Of a stretch of 64,000 nucleotides of DNA, positions 2,508 to 63,850 are shown one piece after another. This DNA is from Mesorhizobium sp. (GTDB taxonomy: Bacteria; Pseudomonadota; Alphaproteobacteria; Rhizobiales; Rhizobiaceae). Within the stretch, counting starts at the first letter, position 1. The number at the start of each line of letters is the position of its first letter. The notes under the pieces were generated by a model that saw only the letters and a list, made by a program, of their open reading frames with translations, had not been told where the DNA came from and made no database searches. Position numbers and translations under genes: made by a program. The stretch is from assembly GCA_004963905.1 (NCBI GenBank), contig SUGL01000016.1, forward strand, positions 78,908-142,907. Reading direction: 5' to 3'.

Positions 2508-2551
2508 CAGGTTTCGCAAAAGTGTCCTACGGTTTTGCGATCAGAACCTGC
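2508..2551 (-). repeat. Palindromic element with AAAACCG-N5-CACTTTT heart
   Basis: Imperfect palindrome just after the peptidase stop. Outer arms GCAGGTT (2508-2514) and AACCTGC (2545-2551) enclose TCGCAAAA (2514-2521) and TTTTGCGA (2533-2540). Read on the minus strand, the heart is AAAA-CCG-TAGGA-CAC-TTTT, the same design as at 7.98, 8.6, 13.0, 28.7, 31.2, 61.9 and 63.8 kb, although the outer stem here is different. Confidence 0.7.
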
Positions 2552-2566
2552 GAGAAACCAGGGAAT

Positions 2567-2608
2567 CTAAGCAGATATTCGTGGGGCATCCCACGAATAT
2601 CTGCTTAG
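2567..2608. repeat. Perfect 19-bp inverted repeat with a 4-base loop
   Basis: CTAAGCAGATATTCGTGGG at 2567-2585 is repeated as its exact reverse complement at 2590-2608 with GCAT between. The hairpin ends 10 bases before the GTG start of the acetyltransferase gene. No T-run follows, so it is not a standard intrinsic terminator. It could be a mobile palindromic repeat or an RNA structure acting on translation of the next gene. Confidence 0.8.
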
Positions 2609-2618
2609 TTCCAGAGCC

Positions 2619-3215
2619 GTGTTCGCGCTCCCTTTCTTTCGCCGCGACCTGCCGGCACTGAAGGGCGAAAAGGTCACGCTGCGCGTGCCGCTGACCAACG
2701 ACTACCGCGAGTGGTCGACGCTGCGCGGCGAAAGCCGCGCCTTCCTGGAGCCATGGGAGCCGCGCTGGCAGCCGGACGAGCTCGACCGCACCGCCTGGCG
2801 GCTGCGCATCAGCCGCTACCGCGAGGACTATGCGCAAGGCACGGCCATCGCCTTCTTCATCTTCGAGAAGTCGAGCGGCAAGCTCGCCGGCGGCATCACG
2901 CTCGGCAACATCCGCCACGGCGTCGCCCAAAGCGGCCATATCGGCTACTGGATCGGCGAGCGCTTCGGCGGCCGCGGGCTGATGACCGACGCGGTCAAGC
3001 TGGTGTCGCGTTTTGCCTTTGATACGCTGAGGTTGCACCGGATCGAGGCTGCCTGTATTCCCGACAACGCCCGGTCGATCCGCGTGCTTGAAAAAGCCGG
3101 ATTCCGGCGCGAAGGACTTCTGCGATCCTATCTCAGGATCAATGGCATCTGGCAGGATCACTACCTCTACGCCCGGATAGCGGACGATCCGCCGGGCGAT
3201 GGAACGAAGGGCTGA
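2619..3215 (+). CDS. GNAT-family N-acetyltransferase, RimJ-like
   Basis: Acetyl-CoA-dependent acetyltransferase of 198 residues in the RimJ/RimL group, which acetylate protein N-termini such as ribosomal proteins. GYWIGERFGGRGLMTDAVKL (about residues 109-128) carries the acetyl-CoA loop, and LHRIEAACIPDNARSIRVLEKAGFRREG is the typical C-terminal block. The start is GTG at 2619. No strong ribosome site is visible, because the 2567-2608 hairpin occupies the leader. The gene ends 3 bases before the GTG of the GGDEF/EAL gene, so the two are likely translationally coupled. The true substrate cannot be read from sequence. Confidence 0.85.
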   Translation: MFALPFFRRDLPALKGEKVTLRVPLTNDYREWSTLRGESRAFLEPWEPRWQPDELDRTAWRLRISRYREDYAQGTAIAFFIFEKSSGKLAGGITLGNIRHGVAQSGHIGYWIGERFGGRGLMTDAVKLVSRFAFDTLRLHRIEAACIPDNARSIRVLEKAGFRREGLLRSYLRINGIWQDHYLYARIADDPPGDGTKG

Positions 3216-3218
3216 TAT

Positions 3219-6107
3219 GTGACGAATTTTCCGCGAATCGCGTCGCTGTTCGCCCTCATCCTGGCGATCTTCGTCGCGCTCTCGGCAGCCGCGCCCGCGC
3301 TCGCCGTCGAGCCGATCAAGATCGCCCGCGACGACAAGGCGCTCGACCTTTCGGGCGCCGTCGAGATCTACCGGAACCAGGGCGAGAATTTCCAGGTTTC
3401 GACCGCGCCCGGCCCCGACGGCATCGTGCGGCGCATCGAGGTCGAGGCCAAGGACGCGCGCTCGACCGGCGACTGGGCGGTGTTCGCGCTCGCCAATACC
3501 ACCGACCAGCAGCTCGACCGGCTGATCGTCGCGCCGCATTTCCGACTGGTGAATTCCGGCATCTTCTGGCCGGACCTCGGCTCGACCCGCATCGCCGCGA
3601 TCACGCCCAGCGAAGGCTTTGCGCTCGACCGCCAGACGAGCCCCGATGCGGACGTCTTCCGAGTAACGCTGAACCCCGGCACCGTGGTCACGTTCGTGGC
3701 CGAGCTCGCCTCGCCGAAGCTGCCCCAGGTCTATCTGTGGGAACCTGAATCCTACAAGGACTCGGTCAATTCCTACACGCTGTTCCGCGGCATCGTCATC
3801 GGCATCGCCGGGCTTCTGGCGCTGTTCCTGACCATCCTGTTCGTGGTCAAGGGGACCTCGATGTTCCCGGCCACGGCCGCTCTCGCCTGGGCGGTGCTCG
3901 CCTATATCTGCGTCGATTTCGGCTTCCTCAACAAGGTCATCGAGATCTCGCCCGGCAACGAGCAGATGTGGCGGGCGGGCACGGAAGTGGCTCTGGCCGC
4001 GACCTTCGTGGTGTTCCTGTTCGCCTATCTCAACCTCAACCGATGGCATGGCCATTTCAGCTATGGCGCGCTGGTCTGGATCCTCGGGCTGCTCTTGATT
4101 GCCGGTGTGGCCATCGTCGATCCGGCGGTCGCCGCGGGCATCGCCCGCATCTCGTTCGCCGCCACCGCGCTCACCGGTCTCGGCCTCATCATCTTCCTCG
4201 GCATTCGCGGTTATGACCGCGCGATCATGCTGGTGCCGAGCTGGGTGATGGTGCTGTTGTGGCTATGCGGATCGTGGATGGCGATCACCGGAATGCTCGA
4301 CAACGACATCGCCCAGCCGGCGTTGGGCGGCGGCCTGATCCTGATCATCCTCCTGATCGGCTTCACCGTCATGCAGCACGCCTTTGCCGGCGGCGCGCTG
4401 CATCAGGGCCTGTTCTCCGACCTCGAGCGCCAGGCGCTTGCGGTCGCCGGATCGGGCGACATCGTGTGGGACTGGGACGTGCTGCGCGACCGCGTCGTGA
4501 CCAAGCCCGACATCAGCATGCAACTCGGCCTTGCTCCGAACAGCCTGTCGGGTGCCGCCCGCAACTGGCTGCCGGTGCTGCATGCCGACGACCGCGACAC
4601 TTTCCGCACGACGCTCGACGTGGTGCTGGAGCACCGCCGCGGCCGGGTGGCGCAGAATTTCCGCCTGCGCGGCGCCGACGGCCATTATCACTGGTTCTCG
4701 CTGCGCGCCCGTCCCGTGATCGGATCGGACGGCGAGGTGATCCGCTGCGTCGGCACCATGGTCGACGTGACCGAGCAGAAGAAGTCCGAGGAAAGGCTGC
4801 TGCACGACGCCGTGCACGACAACCTCACCGGCCTGCCCAACCGCGAGCTGTTCATGAACCGGCTGGAGGCGATCATCTCGATCGCCCGCACCGAGGACAA
4901 GGTGCGGCCGACCGTGTTCGTCATCGACATCGACCGCTTCAAGCAGGTCAATGATGGTCTCGGCATCTCCGCCGGCGACACCATTCTGCTCACTATCGCG
5001 CGCCGGCTGCACAGACTGCTGAAGCCAAAGGATTCGCTGTCGCGCTTTGGCGGCGACCAGTTCGCGCTGATGCTGCTCTCCGAGCAGGATCCGGCCCGCA
5101 TCGCCGCCATGGCCGATGCCATCAAACACGCGATCAACAACCCGATCACCTTCGCCAAGCGCGAGATCGTGCTCACCGCCTCGATCGGCCTGATCACCTG
5201 GACGACGGCGCAGACCTCGTCCGAGGACATGGTCAAGGACGCCGAGCTTGCCATGCACCAGGCCAAGCGTTTCGGCGGCGACAGGATCGAGCCGTTCCGG
5301 CCGGCCTTCCGCACCGTCGGCACCGACCGGCTGCAGTTCGAATCCGACCTTCGCCGCGCCATCGAGCGGCGCGAGTTCACGCTCGCCTATCAGCCGATCG
5401 TGCGGCTGGAGGACGGCAGCGTCGCCGGCTTCGAGGCCCTGCTGCGCTGGGACCATCCGCGGCGCGGCATGATCCCGCCGGGGGATTTCATTCCGGTGGC
5501 CGAAAATTGCGGGCTGATCGTGCAGCTCGGCCTGTTTGCCATGCAGCAGGCGGCCGAGGATCTGGCGACCTGGCAGAAGCAGATTGGCGACGCGCCGCTG
5601 TCGGTATCGGTCAACCTCTCCAGCCGCCAACTCATCCGCCGCGACCTGGTCAGCGATGTCCGCTCGGTCATCGCGCGAGCCAACCTGAAGCCGCGCTGCT
5701 TCCGGCTGGAGCTCACCGAATCGCTGGTGATGGACAATCCCGAGCAGACCGCGCATGTGCTGACCAAGCTCAAGCAGCTCGGCATCGGGCTGTCGCTCGA
5801 CGATTTCGGCACCGGCTATTCCTCGCTCTCCTATCTGACACGCTTTCCGTTCGACACGATCAAGATCGACAAGAGCTTCGTCGACGACGCCACGCCGAAG
5901 CGGGCGGTGCTGCTCAAATCCATGGTCAACATGGCGCATGAGCTCGGCTTGTCGGTCGTCGCCGAAGGCATCTCCGACGAAAGCGACGCGCTGGAGCTGC
6001 GCCAGATGGGCTGCGAATATGTCCAGAGCTTCATGTTCGGCGCGCCGATGCCCGGCGACCAGGTGCTGAAGACGCTGAGGGAGCAGTATCCGCTGACGCA
6101 GGCTTAG
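3219..6107 (+). CDS. Membrane-anchored PAS-GGDEF-EAL c-di-GMP protein, probably a phosphodiesterase
   Basis: Cyclic-di-GMP turnover protein of 962 residues. Residues 1-30 form a signal peptide, followed by a periplasmic sensor region to about 185, several membrane helices at about 186-400, a PAS domain (about 410-520), GGDEF (about 530-695) and EAL (about 700-955). The GGDEF signature is GGDQF at 611-615, with Q in place of the fourth-position acidic residue, so cyclase activity is doubtful. The EAL half looks intact: EALLR at 739-743, ELTES, DDFGTG at 861-866, IKIDKSF, AEGI. It is best read as a phosphodiesterase whose GGDEF may sense GTP. The start is GTG at 3219; the ATG at 3217 is followed immediately by a stop. 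Confidence 0.93.
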   Translation: MTNFPRIASLFALILAIFVALSAAAPALAVEPIKIARDDKALDLSGAVEIYRNQGENFQVSTAPGPDGIVRRIEVEAKDARSTGDWAVFALANTTDQQLDRLIVAPHFRLVNSGIFWPDLGSTRIAAITPSEGFALDRQTSPDADVFRVTLNPGTVVTFVAELASPKLPQVYLWEPESYKDSVNSYTLFRGIVIGIAGLLALFLTILFVVKGTSMFPATAALAWAVLAYICVDFGFLNKVIEISPGNEQMWRAGTEVALAATFVVFLFAYLNLNRWHGHFSYGALVWILGLLLIAGVAIVDPAVAAGIARISFAATALTGLGLIIFLGIRGYDRAIMLVPSWVMVLLWLCGSWMAITGMLDNDIAQPALGGGLILIILLIGFTVMQHAFAGGALHQGLFSDLERQALAVAGSGDIVWDWDVLRDRVVTKPDISMQLGLAPNSLSGAARNWLPVLHADDRDTFRTTLDVVLEHRRGRVAQNFRLRGADGHYHWFSLRARPVIGSDGEVIRCVGTMVDVTEQKKSEERLLHDAVHDNLTGLPNRELFMNRLEAIISIARTEDKVRPTVFVIDIDRFKQVNDGLGISAGDTILLTIARRLHRLLKPKDSLSRFGGDQFALMLLSEQDPARIAAMADAIKHAINNPITFAKREIVLTASIGLITWTTAQTSSEDMVKDAELAMHQAKRFGGDRIEPFRPAFRTVGTDRLQFESDLRRAIERREFTLAYQPIVRLEDGSVAGFEALLRWDHPRRGMIPPGDFIPVAENCGLIVQLGLFAMQQAAEDLATWQKQIGDAPLSVSVNLSSRQLIRRDLVSDVRSVIARANLKPRCFRLELTESLVMDNPEQTAHVLTKLKQLGIGLSLDDFGTGYSSLSYLTRFPFDTIKIDKSFVDDATPKRAVLLKSMVNMAHELGLSVVAEGISDESDALELRQMGCEYVQSFMFGAPMPGDQVLKTLREQYPLTQA

Positions 6108-6155
6108 ATTGGCCTAGCACGGTAGCGCTGGCGGTTGGCGAAGGCCGCCCAACCT

Positions 6156-6339
6156 CGTCATCCTAGGGCGAAGCAGGAGCGCAGCTCCGTCGCGGAGACC
6201 CTAGGATCCATGCCGTTACCTCGCGCGAAGAATGCAACGGAGCCGAATTCTGCAACTGTTGCAACGCCTTAGCGTCACGGCATGGATCCTAGGGTCTACG
6301 CGCGTCGCTTCGCTCCTTGCTCCGCCCTAGGATGACGAC
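6156..6339. repeat. ~185-bp double palindromic element, copy 1, filling the 6108-6411 gap
   Basis: The gap between the convergent GGDEF/EAL and yqgE genes holds no gene, only this element. Outer arms CGTCATCCTAGGGCG (6156-6170) and its complement (6323-6337) enclose inner 19-bp arms at 6198-6216 and 6277-6295 (ACCCTAGGATCCATGCCGT and exact complement). The right part contains CGCGTCGCTTCGCTCCTTGC, also present in the copies at 37981-38206 and 48235-48420. Lying between convergent genes, it could also end transcription from both sides. Confidence 0.85.
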
Positions 6340-6411
6340 CGTAATGGTCGACCCGGCCAATCTCGAACGTTGCAATGATCCAATGCAAGGGTCCCGGCCG
6401 ACGAGGCAGGC

Positions 6412-7020
6412 TTAAGCATGCCCAGCGGCGGCGCTGAGATGGGCGAGATCGATGCCGATCGAGGCCAGGATGCGGTCGTATTTGCGCTCGATGTCGGCGT
6501 CGAACAGAAGCTCGGTCGTCGCCGGGCAGGTCAGCCAGCCATTCTCGGCGATCTCGCTTTCGAGCTGGCCGGCGCCCCAGCCGGAATAGCCGAGCGCCAT
6601 CAGCGCATGGCGGGGTCCGCGGCCGGTCGAGATGGCGCGCAGAATGTCGACAGTGGCGGTCAGGCAGATGTCGTCGGAGACGTTGAGCGAGGATTCCACG
6701 CGATAGTCGCCGGAATGCAGCACGAAGCCGCGGCTGCGGTCGACCGGCCCGCCGTTGCGCACGACGAAGTCGCGGGCATGCGCCGGCAGGCGGATCGCCT
6801 CCTGCTCGTTCATGATGCCGAGCTGCACTAGGAGATCCGGGAACAGCATCTGCTGCGTCTGGTTGATGATCAGGCCCATCGCGCCCTCGTCGCTGTGAGC
6901 GCAGATGTAGATGACCGAGCGTGTGAAACGGTCGTCCTTCATGCCCGGCATGGCAATCAGGAACTGATCGTCGAGAAAGCCACGCCCGGCCGCTTTCTTT
7001 TTGTGGCGCAACAAGTCCAT
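6412..7020 (-). CDS. yqgE: YqgE/AlgH family protein (UPF0301)
   Basis: Protein of 202 residues in the YqgE/AlgH (DUF179) family. The fold is known but the biochemical function is not settled; AlgH was linked to alginate regulation in Pseudomonas. Hallmarks are [14 protein letters not shown] near the N-terminus, [19 protein letters not shown], the [15 protein letters not shown] block and [23 protein letters not shown] chose the ATG at 7018-7020, which gives the usual length. The frame stays open upstream to 7113, but that part does not look like the family and would run into the promoter region of the divergent gene at 7148. Confidence 0.9.
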
Positions 7021-7147
7021 GAGGCTGAGCGTAACCCGTTTCCGCGGCGCCGAAAAGATGCTGAGGCTGCCGGATGTCACGCAAATATGATACCGGCGGG
7101 AACATGAAATCATTGCGCGGCCAAGAACGGGCGATCAAATCACCGCC

Positions 7148-7954
7148 ATGCGATACCTGAACATTATGGCGCTCGGCGCCGTCATCGGCCTTGGAGCCGG
7201 CCTGCCGGCCGAGGCTTCGTCCTCGGCCTGGTACAACAGCGAAGGCGGCAAGGTGCGGCTGGTGACCAGCGGCAAGCCAGACGAGGCCGGCAAAATCCAT
7301 GGCGTGCTCGACATTGCGCTGAAGCCCGGCTGGAAAACCTATTGGCGCGACCCGGGCGATTCCGGCGTGCCGCCGCAACTCGACGTCTCGGCCAGCACCA
7401 ACATCGCCGATGCGCGGCTGTCGTTTCCGCCGCCGCGGCGCCACGATGACGGCTACGGCAAATGGGCGGGCTATGACCGCCCGGTGTCGCTGCCGGTGAC
7501 GTTCACGCTGTCGTCGCCGGACCAGCCGGCGACCATCGATGCCAACGTCTTCCTCGGCATATGCGAGACGATCTGCATTCCGGTGCAGACGCGGCTCAGC
7601 GTCGATCCCGCTTCCGATCCGGACAATGCTACCGACGCGGCGCTGGTCAAGACGGCGCTTGCGACGCTCCCCTCACCGGCGCGGCCCGATTTCGGCATCC
7701 ACGTGCTGGCCGGCGATCACGAGACCCTCGTCGTCGAGGCGCAGTCGCCAGGCGATCCGGGTTCCGTCGATTTCTTCATCGCCGGCGATCGCGACTACAT
7801 GTTCGGCGCACCGCTGCGCGGCGAGCGGAACGGCAAGCTGGTGTTCACGGTGCCGATCCTCGACCGGCCGTCGGCGACGCCCACGGACGGCGGGCTCTAC
7901 TACACGCTGACCAGCGCCGATGGTTCGGTCGACGGATTGCTGCCCTTCCCTTGA
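7148..7954 (+). CDS. Secreted DsbD N-terminal-domain protein
   Basis: Exported protein of 268 residues with an N-terminal signal peptide (about 1-23, cleavage after PAEA). It matches the thiol:disulfide interchange DsbD N-terminal (DsbC/DsbD-alpha-like) family: GWKTYWRDPGDSGVPPQL, the FPPPRRHDDGYGKWAGYDRPVSLPV region and the cysteine pair CETIC. The membrane and thioredoxin parts of full DsbD are absent, so this is a stand-alone periplasmic domain, probably passing electrons or binding a partner thiol protein; that role is inferred. It is divergent from yqgE and ends 134 bases before the peroxiredoxin gene. Confidence 0.85.
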   Translation: MRYLNIMALGAVIGLGAGLPAEASSSAWYNSEGGKVRLVTSGKPDEAGKIHGVLDIALKPGWKTYWRDPGDSGVPPQLDVSASTNIADARLSFPPPRRHDDGYGKWAGYDRPVSLPVTFTLSSPDQPATIDANVFLGICETICIPVQTRLSVDPASDPDNATDAALVKTALATLPSPARPDFGIHVLAGDHETLVVEAQSPGDPGSVDFFIAGDRDYMFGAPLRGERNGKLVFTVPILDRPSATPTDGGLYYTLTSADGSVDGLLPFP

Positions 7955-7975
7955 TCCAGCGGTCTCCTTGAGCCC

Positions 7976-8019
7976 GCAATTCCGGACGGAAAACCGCCGC
8001 ACACTTTCCTGGAATGCTC
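7976..8019 (+). repeat. Palindromic element (GCAATTCC arms), degenerate copy
   Basis: GCAATTCCGGACGG, then AAAACCGCCGCACACTTTC, then CTGGAATGCTC. It is the same family as 13026-13071, 31223-31270 and 61861-61908. This copy has lost one T of the closing TTTT and one T of the right arm, so it looks decayed. Confidence 0.75.
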
Positions 8020-8088
8020 TGAACGGTTGCGGGAAGCCGCCCGGTCCGATACGCACAGATCCTTCACACTCTCCCAAGCGAGGAAATC

Positions 8089-8571
8089 ATGACCATTTCG
8101 GTTGGCGAAAAACTGCCCGAGGCGACGTTCAAGGTGATGACCGATGACGGCGCCAAGTCCATGACCGGCGCCGAGATCTTCGCCGGCAAGAAGGTGGTGC
8201 TGTTCGGGGTTCCCGGCGCCTTCACGCCGACCTGCAGCAACAACCATCTGCCGGGCTATCTCGAGAACCACGACGCCATACTGGCGCGCGGCGTCGATAC
8301 CATCGCGGTCGTCTCGGTCAACGATGTCCATGTCATGGGCGCTTGGGCGCGCTTCACCGGCGGCGAAGGCAAGATCCTGTATCTCGCCGATGGCAGCGGC
8401 GACTTCGCCAAGTCGGTCGGCCTCGACAACGATCTCTCCGCAAACGGCATGGGACTGCGCTCGAAGCGCTTTTCTATGATCGTCGACGACGGCAAGGTCG
8501 TGGCGCTCAATGTCGAAACCAAGCCGGGTGTCGACGAGAGCGGCGCGGCGAAAATCCTCGAGCAGCTCTAG
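8089..8571 (+). CDS. Peroxiredoxin, Prx5 type
   Basis: Thiol peroxidase of 160 residues reducing hydrogen peroxide and organic hydroperoxides, likely cytoplasmic. The catalytic segment VPGAFTPTCSNNHLPGY places the peroxidatic cysteine at residue 49, and the distal part ARFTGGEGKILYLADGSGDF is typical of the Prx5/AhpE-like branch. No second (resolving) cysteine is seen, so it is probably a 1-Cys enzyme recycled by glutathione/glutaredoxin or another thiol. The ATG at 8089 follows GAGGAAATC. The stop codon TAG is part of the repeat element that starts at 8570. Confidence 0.93.
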   Translation: MTISVGEKLPEATFKVMTDDGAKSMTGAEIFAGKKVVLFGVPGAFTPTCSNNHLPGYLENHDAILARGVDTIAVVSVNDVHVMGAWARFTGGEGKILYLADGSGDFAKSVGLDNDLSANGMGLRSKRFSMIVDDGKVVALNVETKPGVDESGAAKILEQL

Positions 8572-8690
8572 ATCAGGATGACGTCTCGTTGACCCGCCAT
8601 CCTGATCTAACTCTTTGTTGGAGCATGATCTTGTCCGAAACCCGGTTCCCACTTTTTGCGTGCGCTGACCTCCGGTTCGGGATCATGCTC
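8570..8690 (+). repeat. Two-hairpin mosaic palindromic element (GAGCATGATC arms)
   Basis: First hairpin: GATCAGGATG with its complement CATCCTGATC (about 8573-8608). Second hairpin: GAGCATGATC at 8621-8630 and GATCATGCTC at 8681-8690, enclosing GAAACCCGGTTCCCACTTTTT. The layout resembles the two-palindrome RIME-type intergenic elements known from rhizobia. It covers the whole space from the peroxiredoxin stop to 2 bases before the next start codon. Confidence 0.8.
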
Positions 8691-8692
8691 TG

Positions 8693-9169
8693 ATGCTCGA
8701 CATCGTCTGGCGCGCCGTCGCGATTGGCATCGGCGCCACGGTCTTCATGGACGTCTGGGCGATCGTGCTCAACAAGGCTTTCGGCCTGCCCAGGCCGAAT
8801 TGGGGCCTGGTCGGCCGCTGGGTGCGGCACCTGCCGGAGAAGGTGTTCCACGACGACATCGGCAAGGCCGCGCCCTATGCGCACGAAAAGGCGCTGGGCT
8901 GGGCCTTCCACTACCTCGTCGGCATCCTTTACGGCGTGATCCTGGTCGTGCTCGCCGGAGCAGGCTGGCTGGCGGCGCCGACCTTTCTGCCGGCCTTCAT
9001 CCTCGGCATCGTGACCGTCGGCGCCGGCTGGTTCCTGCTGGCGCCCGGCATGGGCGCCGGCTGGGCGGCGTCCAAACTGCCCAACCCGATGCTGGTCCGC
9101 GCGCTCAACCTCGTGTCGCACACGGTGTTCGCTCTCGGCCTGTTCTCCACGGCGCTGCTGATCCGATAG
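8693..9169 (+). CDS. DUF2938 integral membrane protein
   Basis: Protein of 158 residues matching the DUF2938 family: ATVFMDVWAIVLNKAFGLPRPNWGLVGRW at the N-terminus and a GWAFHYLVGILYGVILVVLAG block. About four hydrophobic helices span the protein, with an early one carrying the conserved MD pair. Function of the family is unknown. The ATG at 8693 lies 2 bases after a palindromic element, so any ribosome site must be inside that element and none is obvious. The gene is convergent with the parDE pair. Confidence 0.85.
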   Translation: MLDIVWRAVAIGIGATVFMDVWAIVLNKAFGLPRPNWGLVGRWVRHLPEKVFHDDIGKAAPYAHEKALGWAFHYLVGILYGVILVVLAGAGWLAAPTFLPAFILGIVTVGAGWFLLAPGMGAGWAASKLPNPMLVRALNLVSHTVFALGLFSTALLIR

Positions 9170-9173
9170 ACCG

Positions 9174-9486
9174 TTAGAACAGACGGCTCAAATCCCTGCG
9201 ACCGTCCACAACGCGAACGATCTCGACCTGCTCAACGAGACCATCGTCGGTGTCTGGTATCGTTTCGTAAAGCAACAAAAACGGTGCTGCCACCAGCATT
9301 CGCGTCGAAGGCCGAATGTCAGGTCGTCTTATGCCCATGCGTGGTTGGTCGGCCAATTCCATGGCCCGCGCTTCTATCCAGTCATAATAGCGATCGGCGG
9401 CCCTCAGGTTTTCCCCCTCCTATAGTCACATAGATGTCGATGAGGTCGGCTCTAGCCGCCGCCGACCAGACTACCCTAACGGCCAT
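9174..9486 (-). pseudogene. parE: ParE/RelE-family toxin, broken by a +1 frameshift
   Basis: The ATG at 9484-9486 overlaps the antitoxin stop by 11 bases, as in intact parDE pairs. The first frame gives VVWSAAARADLIDIYVTI and then fails. The other frame continues AADRYYDWIEARAMELADQP and on to RRPDIRPSTRMLV and EIVRVVDGRRDLSRLF, ending at 9174. The switch falls at a run of five C on the plus strand (9413-9417). The total span, 313 bases, is exactly one base more than 104 codons. Removing one base restores a normal 103-residue ParE, a toxin that usually acts on gyrase or mRNA. The change may be real inactivation or a sequencing error. Confidence 0.85.
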
Positions 9487-9757
9487 TCGGGGCGGCTTCC
9501 TTCAGCTTCCGCCGAGCTTCCTTTCGCAAGGCATCGAAGTCCAAAGGCTCTGGCTTCCCGCTTGCCTTGCCTTCATCCCAGAGCCTCTGGAGCCTGCGCA
9601 CGTCCTCTTGACGCAATTCACGCTTGGCCAACCAGTCCCGCATGGCTTCGCGCACAATCTCGCTCGTGGTTGCGTATTCGCCCGTTTCCACGGCCTCGCG
9701 CATAATGGCCGCCTGTTGGGTCGTCACGGCCACACTTATCTTTTCCACGTTTGCCAT
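9476..9757 (-). CDS. parD: ParD-type ribbon-helix-helix antitoxin
   Basis: Antitoxin of 93 residues. [20 protein letters not shown] begins the ribbon-helix-helix DNA-binding part, followed by [19 protein letters not shown] and a charged C-terminal toxin-binding tail. The ATG at 9755-9757 is preceded on the minus strand by AAGGACG. The frame is open far upstream, but that part reads through the neighbouring phosphatase in another frame and is not coding. It should bind its partner toxin and repress its own promoter. The downstream toxin gene is frameshifted, so this antitoxin may now be free of a functional partner. Confidence 0.92.
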
Positions 9758-9779
9758 CGAGTGTCGTCCTTGCTCTATG

Positions 9780-9793
9780 GTAGTAAATAGTAC
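9780..9793. promoter_or_regulatory. Candidate parD operator
   Basis: GTAGTAAATAGTAC is an AT-rich near-palindrome (GTA.TA..TA.TAC) 23 bases upstream of the parD start in an otherwise GC-rich gap. Ribbon-helix-helix antitoxins usually bind short palindromes in this position. The assignment is inferred from position and symmetry only. Confidence 0.4.
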
Positions 9794-9860
9794 TCCCGCT
9801 GGCATCTTGCTGCAACGCGCGCTCACATTGCGCTGATGATCGGCCGAATTCAGCGGACAA

Positions 9861-10454: not shown

Positions 10455-10487
10455 GACAAAGACTCCCCGGTCAGAGAGCTGCGGAGA

Positions 10488-12982: not shown

Positions 12983-13025
12983 CGAAACGGGCCGGTTCAG
13001 TCGGAAAGCTATCTGTTTGTTTTGA

Positions 13026-13071
13026 CGCAATTCCGGACGGAAAACCGCCCACACTTTTCCTGGAATTGCTC
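13026..13071 (+). repeat. Palindromic element (GCAATTCC arms)
   Basis: CGCAATTCCGGACGG, then AAAA-CCG-CCCA-CAC-TTTT, then CCTGGAATTGCTC. It lies between the surf1 stop and the ispH start and may shape the surf1-ispH transcript. Confidence 0.85.
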
Positions 13072-19631: not shown

Positions 19632-19959
19632 CGCCCTCTCGTCTCCCACTTCCTGCGATCGGATCGCACCAATAACGAACGACACCGGGATCGGGAATCC
19701 CGGTCTGTCCCTAAGGTGGTTCAAACCATACTCTATTTCCCTCCGCAAGGAAGGAGCGGACGAAACCGTGCGGCATTTTTGCGCGCAACCCAAAGGGCAT
19801 CCCCAGTCATCGCCGCGCCGTGCGCAGGACGGTCGCAATTCGGGCGAATTTGCTCTGGAAAAGCGCGTAATTGCCGGTATCTGGGCGGGCCGGCGACGGT
19901 CTCGTCCTTTACTTGGCCTTGGCGCAGCTTAAAGTGCCGTGATTCGCAATGGAGCCGTC
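19632..19959. other. Divergent promoter region of ctaC and the IalB gene
   Basis: About 330 bases without a gene between two divergent genes, so both promoters must lie here. The only clear structure is CCGGGATCGGGAATCCCGG, a short inverted repeat near 19686-19704. No repeat element of the families seen elsewhere is present. I could not assign -35/-10 boxes with confidence. Confidence 0.5.
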
Positions 19960-28704: not shown

Positions 28705-28816
28705 TGATGCATGTCGTTGCCCCAAAACCGCGGGACACTTTTGGGCGACATGCATCATTTGTTTGATGCATGTCGTTGTCCCAAAACCGCGGGACACTTT
28801 TGGGCGACATGCATCA
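28705..28816. repeat. Two tandem copies of a 53-bp palindromic element (TGATGCATGTCG arms)
   Basis: Copies at 28705-28757 and 28764-28816 (period 59) begin TGATGCATGTCGTTG and end CGACATGCATCA; the heart is AAAA-CCG-CGGGA-CAC-TTTT in both. They differ by one base (CCCC versus TCCC). The pair fills the space between convergent genes: the second copy ends exactly on the stop codon of the small secreted protein gene. It probably also acts as a transcript end. Confidence 0.9.
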
Positions 28817-33910: not shown

Positions 33911-34075
33911 AAGGTCCCATCGCTGCCTGGTGCCCGCGGACGCGGGAGAATCGGGAACACGGTTGAACTCCGTGGCGTGCCCAACGCTGTGAGGGGGACC
34001 GCGCCGGCAAAAGCCACTGTCCTAGACGGGAAGGCGCCGGATGCGGGTCGATCCCGAGCCAGAAGACCGGCCCGG
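33911..34075 (+). promoter_or_regulatory. Cobalamin (B12) riboswitch upstream of bluB
   Basis: The leader contains GGTCCC near the 5' end, CGGGAATCGGGAACACGGTT-like core pairing blocks, GCCACTG at 34012-34018, and the B12 box GAGCCAGAAGACCGGCC at 34056-34072. These are the conserved parts of the cobalamin riboswitch. It lies in the 337-base gap between the divergent deacetylase-like gene and bluB, ending about 60 bases before the bluB start. It is expected to lower bluB expression when B12 is plentiful. Confidence 0.9.
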
Positions 34076-34132
34076 CAGACATGGTCGTCCGCATGGTCAG
34101 GCGGAAGACTGCTTATCGCAAGGGGACAAGCG

Positions 34133-54994: not shown

Positions 54995-55017
54995 GCTTTA
55001 CCTCCCTGACGAAGACA

Positions 55018-55045: not shown

Positions 55046-55108
55046 AAACAGAATCTCCGAACGCACCCCGAGGGAGCGACCGGCCCAGAAGAAGGAAGCG
55101 GACCGTCC

Positions 55109-56116: not shown

Positions 56117-56117
56117 C

Positions 56118-57266
56118 ATGCTGGCGCGCGACCCTTCACCCCCACCACCGCCGGCCGAAGGCGCCGTCAGCCAGCCCGCGCATGGCCCCGCGCATGGCAA
56201 CGAGAGCTACATCGCGCTGGTCTGGCGCCGGCTGAGGCGCTCCTGGACCGGCATGGCCGGACTTTGCCTGGTCGTGCTCCTGCTGCTGATGGCGGTCTTC
56301 GCCGAATTCCTGGCTCCTTTGGACCCGAAGGCCACCGATATCGCCTTCGCGCCGCCGCAGGTGGCGAGCTTCCACGACAAGGACGGCAATTTCGTCGCGC
56401 GGCCGAGAATCTATGCGCTGGCCGAGTCGGCCGATCTCGACCCGGTCACCTTCCAGCCGATCGTCGGGCCTGACTACGACCATCCGCGACTGCTCGGCTT
56501 CTTCGTCGAAGGCGCGCCCTACAAGCTCCTCGGCCTCATCCCGGCGAACCGGCACTTCTTCGGCTCGATGGACGGCCAGCCGGTGCATTTCCTCGGCACC
56601 GACAAGTTCGGTCGCGATGTGCTGTCGCGCGCCATCCACGGTTCACGCGTCTCGCTGATGATCGCGCTCACCGTCGTCTTCATCGTTACCGTCATCGGCA
56701 CCACCGTCGGCATGGTCTCCGGCTATTTCGGCGGCCGGTTCGACGTCTGGATGCAGCGCTTCGTCGAACTGGTGCTCGCCTTTCCGCAGCTGCCGCTCTA
56801 TCTCGCGCTGACCACGCTGATCCCGGTCACCGCGCCGACCAATGTCTTCCTCGCCTTCGTCATCGTCGTGATGTCGGCGCTGGGTTGGGCGCAGATGTCG
56901 CGCGAGGTGCGCGGCAAGACGCTGGCGCTGGCGCGCATCGACTATGTGCGCGCCGCCATGGCGGTCGGCGCCACCGACCGGCGCATCATCATGCAGCACA
57001 TCTTTCCCAATGTGATGAGCCATGTGATCGTCGCCGTGACGCTGGCGATCCCGACGGTGGTGCTTCTGGAATCCTTCCTCGGCTTCCTCGGTTTCGCGGT
57101 GAAGCCGCCGCTGATCTCCTGGGGTCTGATGCTGCAGGACACCGCGGCCTATTCGGTCATCGGCACCTATCCCTGGATCCTGTCGCCGGTCGGCTTCGTG
57201 CTGATCACCGTCTTTGCCTTCAACGCGCTGGGCGACGGCCTGCGCGATGCCGTCGATCCCTATTGA
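56118..57266 (+). CDS. agpC: ABC transporter permease (AgpC-like)
   Basis: Second permease, 382 residues, of the DppC type. A proline-rich N-terminus (PSPPPPPAEG) precedes the first helix (MAGLCLVVLLLLMAVFAEFL). The EAA-like loop VRGKTLALARIDYVRAAMAVGATDRRIIMQHIFPNVMSHV is present, and the last helices carry GFAVKPPLISWGLMLQD. The long segment between helix 1 and 2 (residues about 55-165) is larger than in DppC. The ATG at 56118 lies 1 base after agpB; the frame is open upstream but inside agpB. Confidence 0.9.
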   Translation: MLARDPSPPPPPAEGAVSQPAHGPAHGNESYIALVWRRLRRSWTGMAGLCLVVLLLLMAVFAEFLAPLDPKATDIAFAPPQVASFHDKDGNFVARPRIYALAESADLDPVTFQPIVGPDYDHPRLLGFFVEGAPYKLLGLIPANRHFFGSMDGQPVHFLGTDKFGRDVLSRAIHGSRVSLMIALTVVFIVTVIGTTVGMVSGYFGGRFDVWMQRFVELVLAFPQLPLYLALTTLIPVTAPTNVFLAFVIVVMSALGWAQMSREVRGKTLALARIDYVRAAMAVGATDRRIIMQHIFPNVMSHVIVAVTLAIPTVVLLESFLGFLGFAVKPPLISWGLMLQDTAAYSVIGTYPWILSPVGFVLITVFAFNALGDGLRDAVDPY

Positions 57267-57275
57267 GGTGCAGAG

Positions 57276-58946
<1,671 letters not shown>

Positions 58947-58966
58947 CCATATGCCGGAGGTTCATA

Positions 58967-60337
58967 GTGGCTAGAAATCCCAAGATCACCTTCGTCGGCG
59001 CCGGCTCGACGGTGTTCATGAAGAACATCGTCGGCGACGTGCTGCAGCGGCCGGCGCTTTCGGGCGCGACGATCGCGCTGATGGACATCAACCCGCAGCG
59101 CCTGGAAGAGAGCGCCGTCGTCGTCAACAAGCTGATCGCCACGCTCGGCGTGAAGGCGAAGGCCGTGACCTATTCCGACCAGCGCAAGGCGCTCTCCGGC
59201 GCCGACTTCGTGGTCGTCGCCTTCCAGATCGGCGGCTACGAGCCCTGCACCGTCACCGATTTCGAGGTGCCGAAGAAATACGGCCTGCGCCAGACGATCG
59301 CCGACACGCTCGGCGTCGGTGGCGTCATGCGCGGATTGAGGACCGTGCCGCATCTATGGAAGATCTGCGAGGACATGCTGGCGGTCTGCCCTGATGCGAT
59401 CATGCTGCAATATGTCAACCCGATGGCGATCAACACCTGGGCGATTGCCGAGAAATACCCAACGATCAAGCAGGTCGGCCTCTGCCATTCGGTGCAGGGC
59501 ACGGCGATGGAACTGGCGCACGACCTCGACCTCCCCTACGAGGAGATCCGCTACCGCGCGGCCGGCATCAACCACATGGCCTTCTATCTCAAGTTCGAGC
59601 ATCGCCAGCCGGACGGCTCCTATCGCGACCTCTATCCCGACCTGGTGCGGGCCTATCGCGAAGGCCGCGCGCCGAAGCCGGGCTGGAACCCGCGTTGCCC
59701 GAACAAGGTGCGCTACGAGATGCTGACCCGGCTCGGCTATTTCGTCACCGAAAGCTCGGAGCATTTCGCCGAGTACACGCCCTATTTCATCAAGGACGGC
59801 CGCCCCGACCTGATCGAGAAATACGGCATTCCGCTCGACGAATATCCGAAGCGCTGCATCGAGCAGATCGAGCGCTGGAAGGGCCAGGCGGAGGCCTATC
59901 GTTCGGCCGACCGGATCGAGGTCGAGCAATCGAAGGAATATGCCTCAGAGATCATGAATTCGGTGTGGACCGGGGAGCCGTCGGTGATCTACGGCAATGT
60001 CCGCAACAATGGCTGCATCACCTCGCTGCCTTTCGACTGCGCTGCCGAGGTGCCGTGCCTTGTCGATGCTTCCGGCATCCAGCCGACCTATATAGGCGAG
60101 CTGCCGCCGCAGCTGACGGCGCTGATCCGCACCAACATCAATGTGCAGGAGCTGACCGTGCGGGCGCTGATGACGGAAGACCGCGAGCACATCTACCATG
60201 CAGCGATGATGGATCCGCACACCGCGGCCGAGCTCGACCTCGACCAGATCTGGTCACTGGTCGACGATCTGATCGCCGCTCATGGCGACTGGCTGCCGGC
60301 TTGGGCGCGCGGCAGCCGCAAAACGCGAGCCGCCTGA
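58967..60337 (+). CDS. Family 4 glycosidase (alpha-galactosidase-like), second copy
   Basis: GH4 enzyme of 456 residues, only distantly similar to the first copy at 51339. NAD fold: TFVGAGSTVFMKNIVGDVL; metal/substrate segments: QYVNPMAINTWAIAEKYP, GLCHSVQGTAMELAHDL and GINHMAFYLKFEHR. The start is GTG at 58967 with CCGGAGG upstream. A longer open frame upstream lies within agpD and is not coding. Two different GH4 enzymes in one locus suggest two related substrates (for example different linkages). A hairpin at 60344-60371 follows. Confidence 0.9.
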   Translation: MARNPKITFVGAGSTVFMKNIVGDVLQRPALSGATIALMDINPQRLEESAVVVNKLIATLGVKAKAVTYSDQRKALSGADFVVVAFQIGGYEPCTVTDFEVPKKYGLRQTIADTLGVGGVMRGLRTVPHLWKICEDMLAVCPDAIMLQYVNPMAINTWAIAEKYPTIKQVGLCHSVQGTAMELAHDLDLPYEEIRYRAAGINHMAFYLKFEHRQPDGSYRDLYPDLVRAYREGRAPKPGWNPRCPNKVRYEMLTRLGYFVTESSEHFAEYTPYFIKDGRPDLIEKYGIPLDEYPKRCIEQIERWKGQAEAYRSADRIEVEQSKEYASEIMNSVWTGEPSVIYGNVRNNGCITSLPFDCAAEVPCLVDASGIQPTYIGELPPQLTALIRTNINVQELTVRALMTEDREHIYHAAMMDPHTAAELDLDQIWSLVDDLIAAHGDWLPAWARGSRKTRAA

Positions 60338-60343
60338 TCTCAA

Positions 60344-60371
60344 AAGGCTGGCGGAGTCAGGCGCCAGCCTT
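60344..60371. terminator. Hairpin between convergent GH4 and purD genes
   Basis: AAGGCTGGCG (60344-60353) and CGCCAGCCTT (60362-60371) pair perfectly around GAGTCAGG. It lies 6 bases after the GH4 stop and overlaps the last codons and stop of purD on the minus strand. Likely a bidirectional terminator. Confidence 0.7.
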
Positions 60372-61637
60372 CTCGCGCTCGACGGCGCGCCAGCCGATGT
60401 CGTGGCGGTAAAAGCCCTGCGGCCAGTCAATTTGGTCGATCGCCGCATAGGCCTTGGCCTGCGCCTCGCCGACGGTCTTGCCGAGCGCCGTGACGTTGAG
60501 CACGCGGCCGCCATTAGCGACGAGCGCGCCGCCATTGATGGCGGTGCCGGCATGGAAGATCTCGGCGCCGTCGCCCGCGGCCTCGTCGAGACCGCGGATG
60601 ACCGAGCCCTTTTCCGGCGTGCCGGGATAGCCCCTCGCCGCCATCACCACGGTCAGCGCCGCCTCGTCGCTCCAGCGCACCGACATATGCGCGAGCTGGC
60701 CGTCGACGGCGGCGTTGAGCAGGACGAGCAGGTCGTCCTTCAGGCGCATCATCAGCACCTGGCATTCGGGATCGCCGAAGCGGGTGTTGTATTCGATCAG
60801 CTTTGGCCCGCTGTCCGTGATCATCAGGCCGGCGAACAGGATGCCGGCGAAGGGCGAGCCGAGATTGGCCATGCCGCGCATGGTCGGCTCAATGATCTCG
60901 CGCATGGTGCGTTCGGTCATTTCGGGCGTCATCACCGGGGCCGGCGAATAGGCGCCCATGCCGCCGGTGTTCGGGCCGGTATCGCCGTCGCCGACGCGCT
61001 TGTGGTCCTGCGCGGTGCCGAAGGGCAGCGCGGTGGCGCCGTCGCAGAGGCAGAAGAAGCTCGCTTCCTCGCCGGTCAGATATTCCTCGACGACGACCTC
61101 GGTACCTGCGACGCCGAAAGCGCCCTCGAAACAGGCCTCGAGCGCGGCCAGCGCCTCCTCCTGCGTCATGGCGATGGTGACGCCCTTGCCGGCGGCAAGC
61201 CCGTCGGCCTTGATGACGATCGGCGCGCCGGTCTTTTCGACATAGGCCTTGGCCGAGGCGAGGTCGCTGAAGCGGCCATAGGCTGCCGTCGGGATGTTGA
61301 ACTTCGCGCAAAGATCCTTGGTGAAGCCCTTCGAGCCTTCGAGCCGCGCCGCGGCCTTGGACGGACCGAAGACGCGGATCCCCCAGGCGCGCAGGTCGTC
61401 GGCGATGCCGGCGACCAATGGCGCTTCCGGGCCGACGACGACGAGATCGATCTTTTTCTCCTGGCAGAAGGCGGCGACGGCGGAATGGTCCGAAATGTCG
61501 AGCTTGACCAAATCGGCAACACGGCCGATGCCGGGATTGCCAGGCGAGGCAAAGAGCCTGGTGAGCAGCGGCGAGGCGGCGATCTTCCAGGCAAGCGCAT
61601 GTTCGCGGCCGCCCGAACCGAGAAGAAGAACGTTCAT
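60357..61637 (-). CDS. purD: Phosphoribosylamine-glycine ligase
   Basis: ATP-grasp enzyme making GAR, the second step of purine synthesis. It has 426 residues from the ATG at 61635-61637 (AGAGG upstream); GTG at 61643 is an alternative. Signatures are [55 protein letters not shown] and the ATP-grasp segment [21 protein letters not shown]. All functional segments are present. It is convergent with the second GH4 gene. Confidence 0.97.
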
Positions 61638-61806
61638 GGCCACCTCTTGCTGATCGTCTCCAGAAATCCGCTATTGATCCAAGGGCGACGGGTCAAGGCG
61701 TCTTGGCGTTTTGGCGGCAATTGCACACTAGAACAATAGCGCGCCGGCTATCCTCGGATCAGCGATGACCCCACTGCCTCACGATGTTTTCACCGGCTGG
61801 CCGGAT

Positions 61807-61908
61807 AGAGCGGTTCACCGTTTCACGGAAACGGCGAACCATTCTATCTCTTTGTTTTCACGCAATTCCGGACGGAAAACCGCTTCACACTTTTCCTGGA
61901 ATTGCTCC
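61807..61908 (+). repeat. Two-hairpin mosaic palindromic element in the 61638-61953 gap
   Basis: First hairpin AGAGCGGTTCACCGTTTCAC ... GAAACGGCGAACCATTCT (about 61807-61844), then CGCAATTCCGGACGG, AAAA-CCG-CTTCA-CAC-TTTT and CCTGGAATTGCTCC at 61861-61908. It is the best-kept copy of its family. The rest of the 316-base gap between the divergent purD and ubiA genes shows no other feature and must hold both promoters. Confidence 0.88.
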
Positions 61909-61953
61909 AGGCTGCCGCTTGACGCCGCCCATCGGTGCTGCCACTCCAGCGGG

Positions 61954-62937
61954 ATGGAAACCATTCAGTCGAAAGCCGCCCAGGGCCGCGTCGCGGACGC
62001 GCCGAGCGGCCATTGGGTGTACCGGGTACTGCCGCGCTGGCTGTGGCCTTATGCGCAGCTTGCGCGCTGGGACCGGCCGATCGGCTGGCAACTGCTTTTG
62101 TGGCCCTGCTGGTGGTCGGCAGCCCTTGCGGCCAGTGCCTATCCGCGCCCGACGGACCCGCTGCTAACGCTTTTGCCGGCGCCCTGGTACCTGTTGCTGT
62201 TCTTCGTCGGCGCCGTGGCGATGCGCGGCGCCGGCTGCACCTATAACGACGTTGTCGACGAGGACATCGACAACCAGGTCGAGCGCACGCGCTCGCGGCC
62301 GCTGCCGGCCGGCAAGGTGACAAGGCGCCAGGCCTGGGCATTCCTCATCATCCAGGCGTTGGTCGGGCTTGCGGTGCTGCTTCAATTCAACAGCTTCGCC
62401 ATTCCGCTCGGCATCGCCTCGCTGGCCATCGTCGCGGTCTATCCGTTCATGAAGCGCATCACCAACTGGCCGCAATTCGTGCTGGGGCTCGCCTTCTCCT
62501 GGGGCGCGCTGATGGGCTGGGCGGTCGAGTTCGGCGACCTCGATGGCCCCGCCATCATGCTCTATATCGGCTCGATCCTGTGGGTGATCGGCTACGACAC
62601 GATCTACGCGCATCAGGACAAGGAAGACGACGCCATCGTCGGCGTGCGCTCGACGGCGCGGCTATTCGGCGACAATACCAAGATGTGGCTGGTGGGGCTC
62701 TACGGCGGCACCCTCGTCTGCTTCGCCATCGCCTTTGCTTCGGCGCAGGTGCCGATGCCGGCGCTGGCCGGGCTGATAGCGGCCGGCGCGCATATGGCGC
62801 GCCAGATCATCCGGCTCGACATCAACGATCCGGATCAGTGCCTGAAGCTGTTCAAGTCGAACAACCAGGTCGGCTGGCTGATCTTTCTGGGGCTGATAGG
62901 CGGCGCGCTGTGGGTGGCGCTGAAGCCGCTGGTGTAG
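61954..62937 (+). CDS. ubiA: 4-hydroxybenzoate polyprenyltransferase
   Basis: Membrane enzyme attaching the polyprenyl tail to 4-hydroxybenzoate in ubiquinone synthesis. It has 327 residues and about eight helices. Diphosphate-binding motifs YNDVVDEDIDNQVERTRSRP and YDTIYAHQDKEDDAIVGVRS are both intact. The ATG at 61954 follows the repeat element; 63 upstream in-frame codons run through that element and are not taken as coding. It uses isoprenoids from the MEP pathway and hydroxybenzoate derived from chorismate (aroC). Confidence 0.95.
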   Translation: METIQSKAAQGRVADAPSGHWVYRVLPRWLWPYAQLARWDRPIGWQLLLWPCWWSAALAASAYPRPTDPLLTLLPAPWYLLLFFVGAVAMRGAGCTYNDVVDEDIDNQVERTRSRPLPAGKVTRRQAWAFLIIQALVGLAVLLQFNSFAIPLGIASLAIVAVYPFMKRITNWPQFVLGLAFSWGALMGWAVEFGDLDGPAIMLYIGSILWVIGYDTIYAHQDKEDDAIVGVRSTARLFGDNTKMWLVGLYGGTLVCFAIAFASAQVPMPALAGLIAAGAHMARQIIRLDINDPDQCLKLFKSNNQVGWLIFLGLIGGALWVALKPLV

Positions 62938-62944
62938 CGGGGCG

Positions 62945-63092
62945 CCCCCTTCTCCCCTTGTGGGAGAAGGTGGATCGGCGCGCAGCGCCGAGACGGATGA
63001 GGGGTGTTCCAGCGGAGTGAGCGTTGGCTTTCCCTGGAACACCCCTCATCCGTCGCCTTCGGCGACACCTTCTCCCACAAGGGGAGAAGGGG
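62945..63092. repeat. ~148-bp double palindrome between convergent ubiA and rlmE
   Basis: Perfect 27-bp outer arms at 62946-62972 (CCCCTTCTCCCCTTGTGGGA...) and 63066-63092, and perfect 20-bp inner arms at 62992-63011 (GACGGATGAGGGGTGTTCCA) and 63035-63054. The middle is short. The element ends 3 bases before the rlmE stop codon. It is probably another class of rhizobial intergenic palindrome and may act as a terminator for both genes. Confidence 0.9.
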
Positions 63093-63095
63093 GAA

Positions 63096-63791
63096 CTACC
63101 CCTTGAACTCCTTGGCCAGCAGATAAAGCTCCACCGATTCATCGCGCGAAGCCGGCGGCTTGACGTGGTGGACCGAGCGGAAATTCTGCTTCAGCCGCGA
63201 CAACAGCTCGTTCTCCGCACCGCCCTGAAAGGTCTTGGCGAGGAAATGCCCGCCGGGCTTCAAAACCTGGAGCGCGAAATCGGCCGCCACTTCGCATAGA
63301 TGCATGGTGCGCAGATGGTCGGTGCGGCGGTGTCCGGTGGTGGGAGCCGCCATGTCCGACAGCACGACATCGGGCTGGCCGCCCAGCGCCTCGGACAGCT
63401 TTTGCGGCGCTTCCGGATCGAGGAAATCCATCTGCAGGATGACGGCGCCCGGCACCGCATCCATCTCCAGATAATCGATGCCGACGACATGCGGATTTTC
63501 CGCCGTCGACTTCGTCCGCGCCGCCGCCACCTGGCACCAGCCGCCGGGAGCGGCGCCCAAATCGATCACCTTCATGCCGGGCTTCAGAAGATGATGCTTG
63601 TCATCGATCTCGGTCAGCTTGTAGGCGGCGCGGGAGCGATAGCCATCGGCCTTGGAGCGCTGCACATAGGGATCGTTCATGTGGCGCTCGAGCCAGCGGC
63701 GCGAGGACTCCTTCAGGCCGCTCTTCTTCTTGATCCTCGTCTTCAGCACGCGCATGCCGGCCGAGCCCGGCTTTTCAGGTTTCTTTGTCAT
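63096..63791 (-). CDS. rlmE: 23S rRNA (uridine-2'-O)-methyltransferase
   Basis: FtsJ/RrmJ enzyme methylating U2552 of 23S rRNA, a late step in 50S assembly. It has 231 residues. A lysine-rich N-terminus ([16 protein letters not shown]) precedes [13 protein letters not shown] with the first catalytic lysine, the SAM site [37 protein letters not shown] with the aspartate, and [12 protein letters not shown] with the second lysine. The K-D-K-E tetrad is complete. The gene normally lies next to ppx; the neighbour is beyond the window. Confidence 0.95.
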
Positions 63792-63808
63792 TGCCTGATT
63801 TCTTGCCC

Positions 63809-63850
63809 GAGCATGATCTTATGCGAAAACCGATCGCCACTTTTCGCTGG
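63809..63850 (+). repeat. Partial palindromic element (GAGCATGATC arm)
   Basis: GAGCATGATC at 63809-63818 and the heart AAAA-CCG-ATCGC-CAC-TTTT are kept, closed by CGAAAA/TTTTCG, but the right-hand GATCATGCTC is missing. The rest of 63792-64000 shows no gene: short frames there have no ribosome site or domain. The last 50 bases (GGAGGGAG at the edge) look like the start of yet another palindromic repeat. Confidence 0.6.

Follow-up and report, generated by a model that had tools for sequence, protein, structure and literature searches.

The window, by which we mean the whole 64-kb stretch of Mesorhizobium DNA analysed here, carries a series of small hairpins that share one loop. A scan with AAAACCG-N5-CACTTTT, with up to two mismatches allowed, returned nine matches against 0.13 expected in shuffled sequence. 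Eight of them (2518 on the minus strand, 7990, 8638, 28724, 28783, 31238, 61876 and 63826) are sites listed in a preliminary description of this DNA, which had claimed nine hairpins with a common loop; the match at 19762, with two mismatches, lies outside that list, and the ninth listed site has an N4 loop with its core at 13041. The nine hairpins are real: all nine sites were recovered, and the whole genome holds 185 exact copies of the pattern and none of its reverse. The particulars given for three of them were also correct, namely the T lost in the hairpin at 7976 (CACTTTC in the core at 7990), the AAAC in that at 8621 (AAACCCG at 8638) and the N4 loop of the 13026 site. The features are as follows:

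2503..2566, minus strand: hairpin unit with stem GCAGGTT/AACCTGC, loop CCGTAGGACAC and 3' tag GCTTAG, 61.4 bits; second half of the two-palindrome element 2503-2608
2567..2608, no strand: inverted repeat whose 19-bp arms match perfectly and enclose 4 nt (CTAAGCAGATATTCGTGGG..CCCACGAATATCTGCTTAG); it forms the first half of the same element
7976..8017, plus strand: hairpin unit of the GCAATTCC family, slightly degraded, one T lost, 31.8 bits
8621..8690, plus strand: hairpin unit of the GAGCATGATC family, inner and outer 3' arms separated by about 20 additional nt, 40.1 bits
13027..13069, plus strand: hairpin unit of the GCAATTCC family, N4 loop, 68.8 bits
28705..28757, plus strand: hairpin unit of the TGATGCATGTCG family, first of a tandem pair
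28764..28816, plus strand: hairpin unit of the TGATGCATGTCG family, second of the tandem pair, 70.4 bits
31224..31267, plus strand: hairpin unit of the GCAATTCC family, 73.2 bits
61862..61905, plus strand: hairpin unit of the GCAATTCC family, 79 bits
63809..63847, plus strand: hairpin unit of the GAGCATGATC family, inner stem and loop intact, 36 bits

The unit at 28705..28757 has no separate entry in the model search and overlaps the leader of its neighbour. At the cores 8638 and 63826 the 3' outer arm is shifted by about 20 nt or degraded. A CGCTGACGCGGTCCTTCGGTTCGG-like extra stretch of about 20 nt lies between the 3' arms in the window (8621-8690 and 63809-63880) and in two other loci (L049 near 10876, L063 near 10351), and could pair alternatively with CCGAAAACC on the 5' side. 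At the gathering threshold, no Rfam family matched the hairpins of the window; a cobalamin riboswitch (RF00174) was found at 33911-34089 on the plus strand with 107.5 bits.

The anatomy of the unit was derived from an alignment of 106 copies picked by the core alone (AAAACCG..CACTTTT or GAAACCG..CACTTTC). Read 5' to 3', the unit in its common form opens with a GCTYTA-type tag and a leader rich in T (CTTTGTTTT-like). Next comes an outer stem of 8 bp that begins with GCA, followed, on the 5' side only, by a bulge of 3-4 nt between the outer and inner stems. The inner stem of 7 bp (3 + 4 pairs) ends in AAAA/TTTT and closes the loop CCG-N4/5-CAC, after which come the 3' arms and a second tag. Of the shared AAAA-CCG-N5-CAC-TTTT loop design proposed previously, the CCG-N4/5-CAC loop stands, but AAAA/TTTT is part of the stem: the outermost pair of this block is A-U in 89 of the 106 copies and G-C in 17, the latter stemming from the GAAACCG..CACTTTC pattern that was deliberately included. 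The kept bases, AAAASYG-N5-CRSTTTT, are nearly symmetric and form an imperfect inverted repeat. Both the T-rich leader and the terminal tag recur among copies, the most frequent 3' tags being GCTCTA (18 of 106), GCTTTA (13), GCATTA (8) and GCTCCA (7). A 5' tag was detected in 52 of the 106 copies. Of the 25 copies in which both tags belong to type GCTCTA, GCTTTA or GCATTA, 22 have the same fourth letter in the two (9 C-C, 13 T-T; Fisher p = 0.0002), these cases being non-independent because copies of the same family inherit their tags by descent. In solo units, the leader end and the hairpin end are not inverted repeats of each other; terminal inverted repeats of the form CTAGAGC..GCTCTAG are present in some two-palindrome elements and absent in solo units.

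The outer stems of these copies fall into several families (GCAATTCC, GCATGTCG, GCATGTCT, GCATGATC, GCATGATG, GCAGGTT and others). Described as unrelated before, the stems are in fact forms of a single stem that differ by compensatory changes and keep three almost invariant foot pairs (G-C, C-G and A-U at pairs 1-3 in 100, 101 and 99 of the 106 copies, respectively), and so are variants of one element with a near-fixed GCA foot and a recurrent leader and tag. Across the 106 copies, 94.5% of 1541 cells were paired, compared to 78.1% after shuffling, and 237 cells differed from the commonest pair on both sides, where shuffling gave 84 and the slid controls 5-95; none of 500 shuffles attained any of the five covariation measures. 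When right arms were swapped among copies, full inner pairing dropped from 52/106 to 75/530 and outer runs of at least 7 from 84/106 to 30%. Of the 11 base pairs that lie outside the motif, 10 showed two-sided changes. At the third inner pair, where the commonest family has a mismatch, 51 of the 106 copies are unpaired. The claim that the loop is kept while the stems vary therefore holds far beyond chance, by both the covariation and the arm-swap tests, and a kept loop and bulge together with compensated stems mean that selection acts on the folded strand.

In the whole Mesorhizobium genome (7,056,689 bases in 450 contigs), AAAACCG-N4/5-CACTTTT occurs exactly 104 + 81 = 185 times and the reversed pattern is absent from all 7.06 Mb. 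The genus is supported by the ChvI protein of this genome, which shows 100% identity over 233 residues with that of several named Mesorhizobium species. The genome scan with stem clustering that had been suggested as a check thus revealed an excess of the pattern and more than one stem family. A whole-genome model search gave at least 154 matches, from 150 of 1948 candidates scored. In 80 named ChvI loci, model R1 produced 57 matches (E of at most 0.1, with scores down to about 22 bits), which were strong in Mesorhizobium, Pseudaminobacter, Rhizobium, Ectorhizobium, Brucella tritici (67.3 bits in locus L122) and Methylocystis sp. H62, and weaker in Ochrobactrum, Aureimonas and Neorhizobium, among others. 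The Methylocystis sp. H62 copy (L165:16928-17008, 61.9 bits) belongs to an organism outside the Rhizobiaceae group. Within the order, RAAACCG-N5-CACTTTY was found in 159 of 297 genomes and 79 of 122 genera, where counts of 1-3 can be chance and some genomes show non-zero control matches; at least 10 copies were present in 65 of the 297 genomes, 8 of these 65 being Mesorhizobium. Each of the 119 Mesorhizobium genomes matched at least once, and three genomes had just three matches. Among plasmids, 513 records matched one unit (E 0.001), mostly from Rhizobium (304) and Sinorhizobium (144).

Mobility was assessed with 252 copies, selected with one mismatch allowed and possibly including a few chance matches, of which 155 came from the genome of the window (G000), 50 from the genomes G002 and G092 and 47 from the named loci. 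A site was called empty when the flanks were joined within 40 bp. Among the loci compared, an empty orthologous site was found for 46 of the 252 copies (7 in G000, 6 in G002 and G092, 33 in the named loci). Among the 26 filled/empty pairs listed, the net difference was 57-63 bp in 9 and 109-113 bp in 6 (L099, L135, L147 twice, L157 and L158); the others comprised 10 of 78-126 bp and one artefact. The 15 pairs of 57-63 or 109-113 bp represent, by eye, nine loci, with TA at the empty junction in five:

Mesorhizobium gap after chvI, filled in L102 and L099, empty in L103: TA
Filled in L100, L102 and L104, empty in L101: TA
Rhizobium gap after chvI, filled in L135 and L147, empty in L157: TA
Filled in L147 and L158, empty in L135: TA
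Filled in L157 and L158 near 7.9 kb, empty in L135 (96-99 bp forms included): TA
L099, L098 and L095 compared with L102, empty site CGAG: without TA
L098:13911: without TA
L126: without TA
L157:785: without TA

A unit of about 60 bp, made up of leader, hairpin and a tag usually ending in YTA, is thus present in some genomes and missing at the orthologous place in others. At the TA loci, the filled sites mostly have TA at each end; in L135 and L147 the element starts in the chvI stop codon, which is TAA in the empty site and TAG, from the CTAG end of the element, in the filled one. These junctions fit a 2-bp TA duplication and an insertion beside TA without duplication alike, and the target rule is loose, since four of the nine loci lack TA and 4 of the 16 stop codons at the commonest position in the tag are TCA. 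The larger inserts have a counterpart in the window, where the arrangement at 2503-2608 is one that recurs in L034 and in G092 (L207). The whole two-palindrome element of L207 (102 bp net) is missing from the orthologous G000 site in L014. The two-palindrome elements of Rhizobium have a different first palindrome, whose tip contains GAATC (GANTC) in L147 and L135.

The position of the copies relative to genes was analysed for the best 150 of 169 model matches, in a 1.78 Mb sample of the 7.06 Mb genome in which most stretches beyond C111, C222 and the window were selected for holding a copy, with gene calls from a codon-bias script. Only 2 of the 150 copies lay inside predicted genes, although 82% of the sample is coding, and 5 more lay at stretch ends. 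The remaining 143 were distributed as 100 in tandem, 38 in convergent and 5 in divergent gaps; since divergent gaps account for 77,252 of 298,760 intergenic bases (26%), the copies avoid the spaces between divergent genes. In the tandem gaps, 43 copies ran with the genes and 57 against them, so the copies do not favour the strand of the transcript. For 61 of the 106 aligned copies an opposing gene ends within 400 bp on the 3' side, and 20 of these 61 stops sit 11-13 nt past the end of the core, within the terminal tag, with none closer; the 16 located at exactly 12 nt comprise 12 YTA and 4 TCA (TGA). Among 45 ends of co-oriented genes on the 5' side, 3 fall in the leader or tag. A separate cluster of 7 of these 45, in the G000 sample, lies 65-69 nt upstream of the core, which suggests a further module boundary.

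In most of the complete genomes examined, the copies tend to share one orientation along the chromosome, which was unexpected and appears new, and all stem families run in the same sense. On the G000 contigs, forward:reverse counts were 28:5 (C111), 13:1 (C77), 0:6 (C133), 6:0 (C166) and 13:6 (C222), C11 (3:2) and C288 (2:4) being less one-sided. The summed contig majorities amounted to 128 of 150 copies, compared to 97 by chance and a maximum of 110 in 5000 trials; when copies within 5 kb were thinned, they amounted to 89 of 107 compared to 72. Genes in the larger G000 samples are divided about half per strand. Copies agreed in orientation with those of other families on the same contig at ratios of 34:6 (AATT), 16:0 (TCG), 10:0 (ATC/ATG), 13:2 (GAAA) and 5:2 (other), 18 of the 106 copies having no other family on their contig. 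Among single-contig Mesorhizobium genomes, 17 of 18 were one-sided, with 60-85% of copies on one strand (for example 182:33 in G002, 24:118 in G004 and 155:35 in G092, down to 56:37 in G033, the weakest); G005 was even (64:59). Counts in genomes split into many contigs were often closer to parity, which is what contigs in random orientation should give; G041 (47:115) is among the exceptions. The 17 polar genomes are non-independent by shared ancestry; the signal within one genome is that of more than 100 separate copies. Two of six megaplasmids looked polar (Sinorhizobium chiapasense 13:3, S. mexicanum 4:11), the other four giving 9:10, 7:8, 3:3 and 1:3.

KOPS sequences mark replication arms, and we mapped the arms of G002 and G092, in 20 stretches each, by the KOPS-like octamer GGGNAGGG. 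In G002 its forward:reverse counts were 26:4 within 1.34-4.36 Mb and 2:17 beyond this interval; in G092 they were 24:3 within 1.63-4.23 Mb and 0:21 beyond it. The elements hold their sign on both arms, with 39:8 and 74:11 in G002 (AAAACCGCT and GAAA subsets) and 32:12 and 46:10 in G092 (AAAACCGCT subset). Polarity by replication arm, considered for the one-sided G000 contigs, was therefore rejected, as in both mapped genomes the octamer switches sign twice about half a genome apart and the elements do not; the arms rest on this one octamer, others picked from G002 having shown no clear switch in G092. Equal polarity on both arms is also unlike what is expected from use of the lagging-strand template. 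Transcription was likewise rejected as the source of the polarity by the 43 and 57 copies lying with and against tandem genes, and local GC skew as a predictor of orientation per contig by 74 agreements and 76 disagreements. A further caveat to the arm mapping is that GC skew is positive on one arm and about zero, rather than negative, on the other. The strand carrying the elements has a small G excess of +0.0069 (95% 0.0025-0.011; arm term 0.0054) that is independent of arm and gene strand in 20 stretches each of G002 and G092. Because the two genomes are relatives and could have regions in common, this counts as one hint rather than two that the chromosome may carry a whole-strand component of GC skew. 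In G002, 7 of the 9 listed copies at 4.42-4.62 Mb of C1 are reversed, near the sign change of the octamer, probably through an inversion near the terminus.

What could produce such a set of repeats? We give an even chance to the sites being one superfamily of non-autonomous mobile hairpins, of the RIME/Bru-RS/CIR-like kind, in which folded single-stranded DNA is recognised by one putative factor. This factor would recognise the folded strand mainly via the loop and the bulge and would place the unit at a site often containing TA; under such recognition the stem sequence would be free to drift and the loop sequence would not. Recognition by one factor across the families is what we infer, and the kept loop would be the bait of choice for the missing factor. 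The acting substrate would be single-stranded DNA rather than RNA: the orientation of transcripts is ignored, making RNA less likely as the substrate, and polarity along the chromosome calls for a strand-specific step. A more particular version, which we regard as unlikely, is that the polarity is absolute rather than arm-specific because copies enter, or persist on, one strand that is single-stranded chromosome-wide, for example the strand sent in conjugative transfer from one origin, with one loop-binding single-strand factor for all families; the small G excess lies on this same strand. This is speculation, strand-specific chromosome transfer being the only process we can name that would mark one strand all round the circle. 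If the polarity stands, it is unexplained by bidirectional replication, and would be the fossil record of a strand-specific process, possibly the transfer of chromosomes between cells.

TA at both ends also fits an ordinary TA-targeting transposase acting on double-stranded DNA. The IS427 and IS630 groups are examples of TA-duplicating DDE transposases, and the hairpins could be MITE-like palindromes moved in double-stranded form by such an enzyme, the shared loop being merely inherited. The TA in the empty site at five of nine loci, mostly with one TA per end of the filled site, and the opposing stop codons located in the terminal tag are in line with this. So is the analogy with IS711 of Brucella, an element that duplicates TA at YTAR and has been found inside Bru-RS1 (PMC3163539). 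We nevertheless think it rather unlikely, given that four of the nine empty sites lack TA, that the leader and hairpin ends of solo units are not mutually inverted, and that a kept loop with changing arms is unexpected; moreover, movement as double-stranded DNA into a symmetric target should leave copies randomly oriented, and the polarity is strong. The near symmetry of the kept bases would also suit a double-stranded binding site for a dimeric protein, with AAAASYG-N5-CRSTTTT read as an imperfect inverted repeat, yet changes on both sides of 10 of the 11 pairs outside the motif would be needless in a duplex site and make this highly improbable.

An RNA element, in which an RNA-binding protein or a nuclease acts on the hairpin once it is transcribed, binding or cutting it at the 3' end of the mRNA, would account for the avoidance of divergent gaps and for covariation around a conserved loop, and REP-type repeats are known to be transcribed in S. 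meliloti (PMC2873474). It is an improbable explanation here, as tandem genes show no preferred transcript strand, the polarity follows the chromosome though the larger samples have their genes split about evenly between the strands, and the window sites matched no Rfam family at the gathering threshold; the earlier suggestion of recognition as RNA is weakened in the same way by the missing orientation to transcription. That suggestion had been made beside another, a transposase-like enzyme, with a search for a REP-associated tyrosine transposase gene proposed as a check. The asymmetric bulge, the terminal tag and the one-strand polarity would suit a REP/RAYT-type system, in which the hairpins were moved by a Y1 (HUH) transposase since lost from the strain, and sporadic Y1 proteins do occur in the genus, including in G002 of the same species. 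The search for it failed: Y1_Tnp (PF01797) has no match in the genome of the window and none in 96 of the 118 Mesorhizobium genomes searched, being present in 22, and RAYT was rejected as the present agent on these grounds. A lost RAYT is very improbable as well, since the repeat matched in 119 of 119 genomes of the genus and the tag is mostly YTA, not GTAG or CGTC. We therefore keep to mobile hairpins recognised as folded single strands as the working interpretation.

The hairpins resemble several known repeats. The RIME (Rhizobium-specific intergenic mosaic element) was reportedly described by Osteras et al. in 1995 in the chvI two-component locus, and is said to be a mosaic of two palindromes of about 108 bp. 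The present copies are RIME-like in being intergenic (2 of 150 in predicted genes) and in that two Rhizobium genomes (L135, L147) have a two-palindrome element immediately behind chvI. In their make-up they are divided: 6 of the 26 listed pairs are inserts of 109-113 bp and the arrangement at 2503-2608 of the window has two palindromes, and 9 of the 26 are single units of 57-63 bp. In 8 of the 80 ChvI loci, a set without S. meliloti, an R1 match starts no more than about 70 bp from where the chvI match ends; of these 8, the L158 match is weak (E 0.053). The RPE/RIME resemblance noted in the preliminary description was right as to the RIME type, by anatomy and by the element after chvI. Unlike RIME, many of the present copies are single units, and the likeness is one of anatomy and position rather than of comparison with the 1995 consensus.

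With REP elements, whose RAYT transposases go with GTAG/CGTC tags (PMC3733652), the hairpins have in common that they are small, tagged, imperfect, intergenic and of high copy number; in contrast to REP/RAYT, they have no Y1 transposase in their own genome, a different tag and a longer loop. No description of the shared loop or the strand polarity was recognised in the literature found on RIME, orientation bias, Bru-RS and CIR, a body of work with subscription papers mostly outside its scope; the available parts of PMC2873474, PMC3733652, PMC2267715, PMC3233446, PMC2245857, PMC5498481, PMC2229807, PMC10800456, PMC3163539 and PMC10969869 mention neither. That one loop and one fold span the stem families is new as far as this literature goes.

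As outlined in PMC2229807 after Chen and Shapiro (2003), CIR is about 110 bp long and has two arms, a linker and GANTC at one tip; as far as that outline goes, the elements of L147 and L135, with two arms and GAATC in the tip of the first palindrome, are CIR-like, and the solo units differ by the absence of a second arm. Bru-RS1 and Bru-RS2, of 103 and 106 bp, are intergenic palindromic repeats of the related genus Brucella that are predicted to share one structure and carry a YTAR site (PMC10800456, PMC3163539, PMC2267715). The likeness to them is by this description and by the R1 matches in the Brucella tritici and Ochrobactrum loci, not by the Bru-RS sequence. Compared in this way, by description, RIME, CIR and Bru-RS probably all denote members of the same superfamily, so that apparently separate repeat families would be joined as a single structural superfamily with a kept loop.
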